Shown here piece after piece: positions 42,879 to 44,315 of a stretch of DNA of 64,000 nucleotides. This DNA comes from Leifsonia virtsii (GTDB lineage: Bacteria; Actinomycetota; Actinomycetes; Actinomycetales; Microbacteriaceae). Positions within the stretch are counted from its first letter, which is position 1; the number at the start of each line of letters is the position of its first letter. Made by a program: the position numbers and the translations under genes. The stretch lies in NCBI RefSeq assembly GCF_030433675.1, contig NZ_JAROCB010000003.1, positions 248,001-312,000 on the forward strand. The letters run 5' to 3'. The notes beneath the pieces are model-generated. The model saw only the letters and a list, made by a program, of their open reading frames with translations. It did no database searches and was not told where the DNA came from.

Positions 42879-43229
42879 TCAGACCGACGTCAGGAACGAC
42901 GAGACCGCATCCAGCGACCCCGGAACGATGCGGTAGTACGCCCAGGTGCCGCGCTTGCTTCGGCTGAGGAAGCCGGCGTCGACGAGGATCTTGAGGTGGT
43001 GCGAGACCGTCGGCTGCGAGAGGCCGAGCGGCTCGGTGAGGTCGCACACGCAGGCCTCGCCGTCTTCGTGGGCGGCGACCATCGAGATGAGTCGCAGACG
43101 AGCCGGATCGGCGAGCGCCTTCATCGCCCGGGCGACCGAGATGGCGTTCTCCTCGCTGATGACCTCGCGCGTGATGGGTGCGCAGCAGGCCTGCAGGTCG
43201 CGCAGCGGGAGCAGTTCGGTCATCGCCAT
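42879..43229 (-). CDS. arsR: ArsR-type arsenic/metal-responsive repressor
   Basis: A 116-residue winged-helix repressor. The helix alpha-3 metal site is seen as ACVCDL (Cys60, Cys62) just before the recognition helix (GLSQPTVSHHLKIL), with an extra N-terminal Cys15-Cys16 pair. This is the Cys pattern of arsenite/antimonite sensors. The start at 43229 is supported by GGGAGG 8 bases upstream. Two operators (43250 and 43286) lie between it and the divergent arsC unit, so arsenite would derepress both directions. Confidence 0.92.
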   Translation of the reverse strand: MAMTELLPLRDLQACCAPITREVISEENAISVARAMKALADPARLRLISMVAAHEDGEACVCDLTEPLGLSQPTVSHHLKILVDAGFLSRSKRGTWAYYRIVPGSLDAVSSFLTSV

Positions 43230-43249: not shown

Positions 43250-43265
43250 ATTGACAACCGTCAAT
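43250..43265. promoter_or_regulatory. ArsR operator 1, overlapping a -35 element
   Basis: ATTGAC-N4-GTCAAT is a perfect inverted repeat. TTGACA at 43251-43256 inside it could serve as the -35 of the plus-strand promoter. Confidence 0.7.
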
Positions 43266-43303: not shown

Positions 43304-43320
43304 AAGAAGGGAGAATCATC

Positions 43321-43389
43321 ATGGGATGCTGCGACAGCGACGACTGCCAGGTGCTGCCGGACGGCTCGTGCTCGCCCGACTGCTGCTGA
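43321..43389 (+). CDS. 22-residue cysteine-rich peptide of the ars locus
   Basis: A tiny open frame of 22 codons with six cysteines (positions 3, 4, 9, 17, 21, 22) arranged as CC, C, C and CC, and four Asp residues. It begins MGCCDSDDC and ends SPDCC. AGGGAGA sits about 7 bases before the ATG, a good ribosome site, and the peptide is the first gene after the ArsR operators. The arsC gene follows 61 bases later on the same strand. The vicinal Cys pairs suggest binding of arsenite or another soft metal, as a metallochaperone or small metallothionein. This is inference; I know no named family. Confidence 0.65.
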   Translation: MGCCDSDDCQVLPDGSCSPDCC

Positions 43390-43450
43390 CAGAGCCGGGC
43401 CGCCGTCCCGCCCGGGCGGCGGCCCACCCATCGACCACACGGAGCTGAAC

Positions 43451-43861
43451 ATGACCACCCCGACCGTCCTCTTCGTCTGCGTGCACAACGCCGGCCGCTC
43501 GCAGATGGCCGCGGGCTTCCTCCGCGAGCTCTCGGGCGGCCGCGTGGAGGTGCTCTCCGCAGGCTCCGAGCCGAAGGACTCCCTGAACCCGGTCGCCGTG
43601 CAGGCCATGGCCGAGGTCGGCATCGACATCGCCGGCAACACTCCGAAGGTGCTCACCACCGAAGCCGTGAAGGACTCCGACGTCGTCATCACCATGGGCT
43701 GCGGCGACACTTGCCCGATCTTCCCCGGCAAGCGCTACGAGGACTGGGACCTCACCGACCCCGCAGGCCGCCCGATCGAGGAGGTGCGGCCGATCCGCGA
43801 CGAGATCGAGCGCCGCGTCCGCACCCTGCTCGCGGAGCTCGCGCCGACGACCGCCGGCTGA
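43451..43861 (+). CDS. arsC: Arsenate reductase, low-molecular-weight phosphatase type
   Basis: A 136-residue arsenate reductase of the LMW tyrosine-phosphatase fold. The P-loop is Cys10-X5-Arg16 (CVHNAGRS), the redox pair is Cys84 and Cys88 (MGCGDTCP), and the Asp loop is DWDLTDPAG. It reduces arsenate to arsenite in the cytoplasm using thioredoxin or mycothiol. GGAG lies 6 bases before the ATG. It is expected to be induced through ArsR together with the Cys-rich peptide. No arsenite exporter (ArsB/Acr3) lies in the window. Confidence 0.93.
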   Translation: MTTPTVLFVCVHNAGRSQMAAGFLRELSGGRVEVLSAGSEPKDSLNPVAVQAMAEVGIDIAGNTPKVLTTEAVKDSDVVITMGCGDTCPIFPGKRYEDWDLTDPAGRPIEEVRPIRDEIERRVRTLLAELAPTTAG

Positions 43862-43865
43862 GTCC

Positions 43866-44315
43866 ATGCCGTCGTGGCTCGAGGTCGTCCTCGGTGTCGT
43901 GGGCGGGCTGGTGCTCCTCTGGGCGCTGCTGATCGCGGTGCTCTGGGTGCAGCAGCGGCGCGCAGGCAGGAACGTCGACTGGCGCGAGATCCTCCGTCTG
44001 GCGCCCGATGTCGTCCGGCTCATCAAGCGCCTCGCCACCGACCCGGCCGTACCGCGGGCGACGCGCTGGTGGCTCGGGGCGCTGCTCGTGTACCTGGTGC
44101 TGCCGATCGACCTCATCCCCGACTTCATCCCGGTCATCGGGTACGCGGACGACGCGATCATCGCCGCGATCGCCCTGCGCTTCGCCATCCGGCACGCCGG
44201 CTACGCGGCCGTCGAACGCAACTGGCAGGGCAGCCCCGGCGGCCTCGCGAGCGTGCTCGCGCTGGCACGGATCGCCTTCGAGTTGCACGTCGTGGTGGCG
44301 AAACGGGCGGAATAG
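43866..44315 (+). CDS. DUF1232 (YkvA-like) membrane protein
   Basis: A 149-residue protein with an N-terminal membrane helix (VVLGVVGGLVLLWALLIAVLW), then the DUF1232 core (WWLGALLVYLVLPIDLIPDF, VIGYADDAIIAAIALRF). Function of the family is unknown. It starts 4 bases after arsC, so it is cotranscribed. Its last dozen codons (ELHVVVAKRAE) are encoded by repeat A5, meaning the original C-terminus was probably replaced or extended by the repeat. Confidence 0.85.
   Translation: MPSWLEVVLGVVGGLVLLWALLIAVLWVQQRRAGRNVDWREILRLAPDVVRLIKRLATDPAVPRATRWWLGALLVYLVLPIDLIPDFIPVIGYADDAIIAAIALRFAIRHAGYAAVERNWQGSPGGLASVLALARIAFELHVVVAKRAE

Follow-up and report, generated by a model that had tools for sequence, protein, structure and literature searches.

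A 22-codon gene for a peptide with six cysteines was found at apparent ArsR operators in the soil bacterium Leifsonia virtsii. Its amino-acid sequence is under purifying selection, which identifies it as a conserved, overlooked coding unit. The window analyzed here is the whole stretch of 64,000 nucleotides (contig NZ_JAROCB010000003.1, positions 248,001 to 312,000), and the features of interest are listed in Table 1. The best explanation for the peptide is, in our opinion, an ArsR-controlled, metallothionein-like arsenite sink; we regard this as reasonably probable, with arsenite binding as its central prediction.

Table 1. Features of the ars locus in the window (positions are those of the window)
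Feature	Position	Strand	Basis or remark
arsR, metalloregulator	42879..43223	-	CC at 13, 14 and CVC at 58-60, as in type 3 arsenite sites
First operator-like inverted repeat, core TTGACAACCGTCAA	43243..43272		Sequence repeat; ArsR site predicted only
Second operator-like inverted repeat TTCATCGACaaacGTCGATGAA	43284..43305		Sequence repeat; ArsR site predicted only
Shine-Dalgarno-like AAGGGAG	43307..43313	+	Ends 7 nt 5' of the peptide ATG; from sequence
22-residue peptide gene MGCCDSDDCQVLPDGSCSPDCC	43321..43389 (incl. stop)	+	Translation, conservation, frame-specific purifying selection
GC hairpin	43397..43425	+	Between peptide stop and arsC
arsC-like reductase, LMWPc fold	43451..43861	+	Below the cut-offs of the three matching NCBIfam arsenate reductase models

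The initial annotation had proposed a 22-codon frame with six Cys codons in CC-C-C-CC order, preceded by two ArsR operators and a good ribosome site. Translation bore out the frame and its cysteines (residues 3, 4, 9, 17, 21 and 22, spaced CC-x4-C-x7-C-x3-CC and followed by a TGA stop), and two apparent operators, seen as inverted repeats, and the AAGGGAG motif were indeed present upstream, with a TTGACA at 43251-43256 inside the first repeat. The gene is divergent from arsR, and 97 nt separate the two starts on opposite strands. The further claim that it precedes arsC in one unit stood only in part: arsC does start 61 nt past the peptide gene, but a hairpin that the annotation did not mention separates the two, and the peptide is not tied to arsC. 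A terminator scan of the window, which requires a T run, returned no terminator-like site, and the hairpin has no such run; it may represent a leaky end of transcription, with some read-through at those loci where arsC comes next. In the ars operon of Bacillus CDB3, a hairpin between arsC and arsD reduces read-through, as stated in an excerpt of PMC4562236. An Rfam search of the window returned nothing. A pattern drawn from the peptide had an expectation of 0.00 in shuffles of the window, which is a weak test because the pattern was fitted to the sequence.

The same frame is open further upstream to an ATG at 43264, which would give 41 residues. This longer ATG-started frame was open in seven of the 11 peptide loci compared and absent in four (L046, L047, L048 and L049), and in the window it overlaps the first operator. 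The 22-residue form was therefore preferred, and the 41-residue form was dropped as the likely product.

The neighboring ArsR has a cysteine layout like that of the Corynebacterium type 3 arsenite site (Cys15, Cys16, Cys55), and three-Cys sites are the common form of arsenite site among ArsR proteins, according to an excerpt of PMC11868830. On the other side, a gene for a DUF1232 membrane-type protein (43866-44315) starts 4 nt past arsC and may be cotranscribed with it. Just one arsenic-pump-like gene was found in the genome, that of an unlinked CitMHS/ArsB-like transporter (L219, G000:C2:1130227-1131354), which scores as CitMHS and matches ArsB only below the NCBIfam cut-offs; an SBF-type match was not found in this genome.

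To describe the distribution of the peptide, we start with its own genus. Of 28 Leifsonia genomes, 15 contain it, with 16 copies in all, and a further genus has it in two genomes. Every Leifsonia copy adjoins one type of arsR, 94-97 nt away, and the 16 ArsR matches of at least 84% identity were located in those same 15 genomes. Among 13 scanned ArsR matches at 68% identity or less, a short Cys-rich frame was seen in a single locus (L089), elsewhere in that locus. For 18 sequences (16 from Leifsonia and two from the other genus), pN/pS was 0.19 in the frame of the peptide versus 1.89 and 1.81 in the shifted frames, as calculated from 17 comparable codons of about 22, with the first and the variable codons left out. 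Variation within these 17 codons fell on 12 third, five first and three second positions. Gln10 and Leu-Pro-Asp-Gly are kept alongside the Cys residues in the Leifsonia-type peptides, and one- or two-codon deletions in two Leifsonia copies preserve both the frame and the CC-C-C-CC order. Low in-frame pN/pS was obtained again in a second genus (0.23, four sequences) and for one pair (0.20).

Searches by sequence had a short reach. A strict 9-residue pattern matched 17 stretches in the named genomes, where four loci were confirmed (three in Leifsonia, one in Diaminobutyricibacter); as one strict pattern, it undercounts. In a profile search of 394 class genomes, no genome but the own one matched over the full length; 31 others gave partial matches, and the CC-C-C-CC peptide was not seen in the 13 of these 31 that were inspected. 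Plasmid tblastn gave no match with this peptide or with the second type of peptide described below.

A wider family was found by position beside arsR. The ArsR protein was searched against 299 family genomes (172 with a match) and 216 class genomes (136 with a match), and the best ArsR loci were taken, with longer stretches for many. Loci sharing identical first 150 upstream bases were merged, and 120 non-redundant loci were scanned. A frame of 9-27 codons ending in Cys-Cys occurred in 42 of these, under 15 genus labels: 36 frames are divergent from arsR, five lie just past arsC and one lies past a flavoprotein gene. All but one of the divergent frames are located within 84-108 nt of the arsR start, the remaining one at 150 nt. 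When the upstream regions were replaced by first-order Markov copies, four of 12000 matched, against 36 of the 120 real regions; on this control, together with the frame-specific pN/pS, a chance frame was rejected. The initial annotation named a lack of conservation at the ars loci of relatives as a refutation, and this was not borne out; its suggestion of a class of such tiny peptides was supported. Two operator-like repeats were listed for each of the 36 divergent loci, using loose patterns and without a shuffle control.

Elsewhere in the 120 loci (about 1.03 million strand-bases), eight further such frames were found. Six of them, each with a ribosome site, belong to ars operons (the five past arsC and the one past the flavoprotein gene), and two were judged spurious by place and composition. 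The smallest peptide gene, just past arsC in L162 (minus strand, start at 2354), has nine codons (MDECCEGCC), a good ribosome site and an exact CCxxCC; the scan gave a 12-residue frame here, and the ribosome site favors nine. For L163 the scans used an inner start; the peptide has 26 residues when read from the start whose ribosome site is better. Peptide-less loci showed the same ArsR Cys layout just as often (69 of 77), in a tally whose 43 peptide loci still include a false frame in L140; this frame, which is the tail of a flavoprotein gene, was excluded from the operon-content counts onward.

The 36 distinct peptides contain 222 Cys, 154 Asp or Glu, three Lys or Arg and one aromatic residue in 758 residues, in contrast to spurious frames in these GC-rich loci, which are Arg-rich. 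Examples are MNGCCDPEEGCCEPGCC, MDEDCCDPLTCPPELCGTGCC, MADGCCGTDASCCEGCCENGCCETSCC, MTDLTVCADCGCDPCCCQDDCC, MNADATCLELGCPPELDEQCCTTSCC and MESSTGCCSGGCC, besides the nine-residue form. Several members hold CCxxCC or CCxxxCC, and residues other than Cys and acidic ones drift strongly between genera. The class-wide ArsR search contributed 29 loci, 22 of them outside the family, with ~1.5 kb of flank each; no Cys-Cys-ending divergent frame was found in these, and Arg-rich Cys frames in two of them were judged spurious. Scanning of six of the seven plasmid arsR loci revealed no peptide. In L132 (2534-3175), whose ArsR stands beside that of L166 on the tree, there is no peptide; the matches to arsC and arsR overlap, which looks like a loss of the sequence between the two genes.

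A second type of very small peptide, MECCDPTVCDPSACEDCC, was observed in L089 (3259-3315, genome G782) and also in L097. Its frame comes directly after the gene of an ArsO-like flavoprotein, within an ars cassette of several genes, and the peptide was not found in 296 class genomes in a search run without a positive control.

We propose the following course of events for the sink. Arsenite would cause ArsR to leave the two operators, an expectation based on the presence of these sites and on the arrangement of Cys in ArsR. A short transcript would be induced, from which the peptide would be translated as the first or only product, early and in larger amounts than arsC, and the hairpin past the peptide would probably limit read-through into arsC. 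The Cys pairs would hold As(III), and perhaps Sb(III), and the peptide would act as a cytosolic sink or buffer, a minimal metallothionein, sequestering arsenite produced by ArsC or entering the cell. Such a peptide would be favored where the operon encodes no other route of arsenite disposal. Against the sink stand the 13 of 28 Leifsonia genomes that live without the peptide, the ArsR Cys layout that is just as frequent in peptide-less loci, the unlinked ArsB/CitMHS-like transporter of the own genome, and a true Acr3 encoded elsewhere in four of 39 peptide genomes.

Operon content was compared for the 85 loci whose divergent flank spans 2.6 kb or more. Of these, 52 have neither Acr3 nor an ArsO-like flavoprotein, and the peptide was present in 41 of them, versus one of the 33 with either; that one (L097) is the single locus with both flavoprotein and peptide. 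In the subset with 65-84% ArsR identity, the counts were 26 of 36 versus 0 of 29 (Fisher 3.3e-10). This link to efflux genes is confounded by descent and must be read with care: presence is clustered on a poorly resolved ArsR tree, with seven changes and two independent pairs on supported branches. Eleven of the 52 loci without Acr3 or flavoprotein also have no peptide. Among ten peptide-less loci of this kind with at least 65% ArsR identity, two have the flavoprotein gene on the opposite flank of arsR and another has an arsenite methyltransferase past arsC. L170 (~1568-2796) was seen to carry arsR, a divergent arsC and then an arsenite methyltransferase over the NCBIfam cut-off, with CC near its start, and no peptide. 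At the genome level, Acr3 scored over the cut-off in four of 39 genomes with the peptide and in 11 of the 41 remaining ones, a count that left out 11 of 91 genomes.

The ArsO-like flavoproteins of peptide-less ars operons (L083-L217) have a Cys-rich C-terminal tail (GVCSTG...SSCC), e.g. GVCSTGASGSSCCS, and at least two Cys occur in the last 24 residues of 33 of 35 distinct tails. The proteins score far below the cut-off of the ArsO model (52.8 of 425 bits). With this tail they might provide, in tethered form, the arsenite-binding function that we propose for the peptide.

The strongest competitor of the sink is a metallochaperone, a kind of mini-ArsD that hands As(III) to a partner such as an unlinked pump, an aquaglyceroporin route or ArsR, and we consider it unlikely. 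ArsD has Cys pairs as well, the own genome has the unlinked ArsB/CitMHS-like transporter, and some peptide loci lie next to a MIP gene of aquaglyceroporin type. However, there is no constant partner gene beside the peptide, Acr3 was absent from all 22 Leifsonia genomes searched, with or without the peptide, and the strong drift outside Cys and acidic residues would be unusual for a docking peptide. The sink is preferred because of this drift and the missing constant partner.

The position of the peptide relative to arsC bears on two other explanations, both of low probability. In the first, the peptide is a leader or attenuator, and translation of its Cys codons sets the read-through of the hairpin into arsC. 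The arrangement in the window would suit this, with a first frame that ends in two Cys codons and a hairpin that follows, and hairpins lie past the peptide in most loci (folding z-score below -2 on the 3' side of divergent peptides in 26 of 36 loci). In L226, L228 and L229, short direct repeats (GCAAGCAGGATG-type) were observed in the first 55 bases past the peptide stop, before the hairpin. Yet in L224, L226, L227, L228 and L235 the nearest gene found past the peptide is convergent, which leaves the peptide as the only gene found under the arsR promoter and nothing to attenuate; L226, L227 and L228 are close relatives, which reduces these to about three independent cases. The peptide lies past arsC in five loci, four of which show by eye a strong inverted repeat past the peptide, and the selection on non-Cys residues in Leifsonia likewise speaks against a leader. 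An arsC leader was rejected as a general account because of these stand-alone loci and the five with the peptide past arsC. The peptide, not the downstream gene, is therefore the constant, and it is independent of arsC.

In the second explanation, which we rate marginally lower still, the paired thiols pass electrons to ArsC. Vicinal thiols are redox active and arsC is the most frequent neighbor of the peptide, but several loci have the peptide and no arsC in the divergent flank (L224, L226-L228, L235, L163, L133 and L178), and no CxxC motif is common to the family members. Least probable of all is a metallothionein that serves a different metal (Cd, Zn, Cu or Bi) under an ArsR/SmtB repressor. 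The usual ligands of metallothioneins are Zn, Cd or Cu, and repressors of the ArsR/SmtB family respond to several metals, but the ArsR carries the CC and CxC layout of arsenite sensors and has arsC as its usual companion at the peptide loci.

Bacteria are usually viewed as resisting arsenic by reducing it and pumping it out, by oxidizing it or by methylating it. An excerpt of PMC12093948 (2025) states that no specific intracellular sequestration gene has so far been found within the ars operon, and the arsenite sink proposed here is a direct candidate for this missing strategy. Our broader hypothesis, to which we give an even chance, is that Microbacteriaceae possess ArsR-run, fast-evolving, tetracysteine-like micropeptides, down to the nine residues of MDECCEGCC, as gene-encoded arsenite scavengers. 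These would be the first sequestration genes inside ars operons and the smallest ribosomally made metallothioneins, would take the place of efflux in operons that lack a pump, and would have a tethered equivalent of the same function in the ArsO-like tails of sister operons. Such genes are easily overlooked, with 9-27 codons and little in common beyond Cys pairs, acidity and place. If true, this would be an example of a gene family found by its place beside a regulator, where a sequence search sees one genus at a time. No description of such peptides was found in the titles and abstract openings of the open-licence literature among the matches listed.

By sequence, the peptides match no described family. 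No NCBIfam or Pfam family, including the metallothionein and ArsD models, was returned for eight peptides, and no PDB sequence matched the peptide of the window, although such short queries have little power in both searches. By proposed function, they are metallothionein-like. Metallothioneins, such as the bacterial SmtA and MymT and the 25-residue fungal forms, are also small and Cys-rich, have almost no aromatic residues and are controlled by metals, and the traits of this class (small size, many Cys, few aromatics) are found in the 36 distinct peptides. The peptides differ in being shorter (9-27 residues), acidic, almost without Lys or Arg, and under ArsR. With ArsD they share paired Cys and their origin in an ars operon, but the peptide has about a fifth of its length and no match to its Pfam or NCBIfam models. 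In mycobacteria, polycysteine short frames were reportedly proposed as attenuators by Canestrari in 2020. Like the peptide gene of the window, these frames are very short and rich in Cys, precede a gene of an operon and have a hairpin after them, whereas the peptide described here has its own ribosome site, may stand alone or past arsC, and is under selection at non-Cys residues. QueF and QueE of Lysinibacillus are arsenic-binding accumulation proteins under ArsR, and they differ from the peptides as full enzymes encoded outside the ars operon, according to the excerpt of PMC12093948. The engineered tetracysteine tag CCPGCC is bound by biarsenical dyes, as reported in an excerpt of PMC10341821, which shows that such spacing suits arsenic. 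The natural CCEGCC, CCAPGCC and CCEPGCC share this CCxxCC-type spacing, and the peptides differ from the tag in that they are natural, are under ArsR and vary in spacing. If they do bind arsenite, they would provide natural short peptides for arsenic capture or sensing, as the counterpart of the engineered biarsenical tag.
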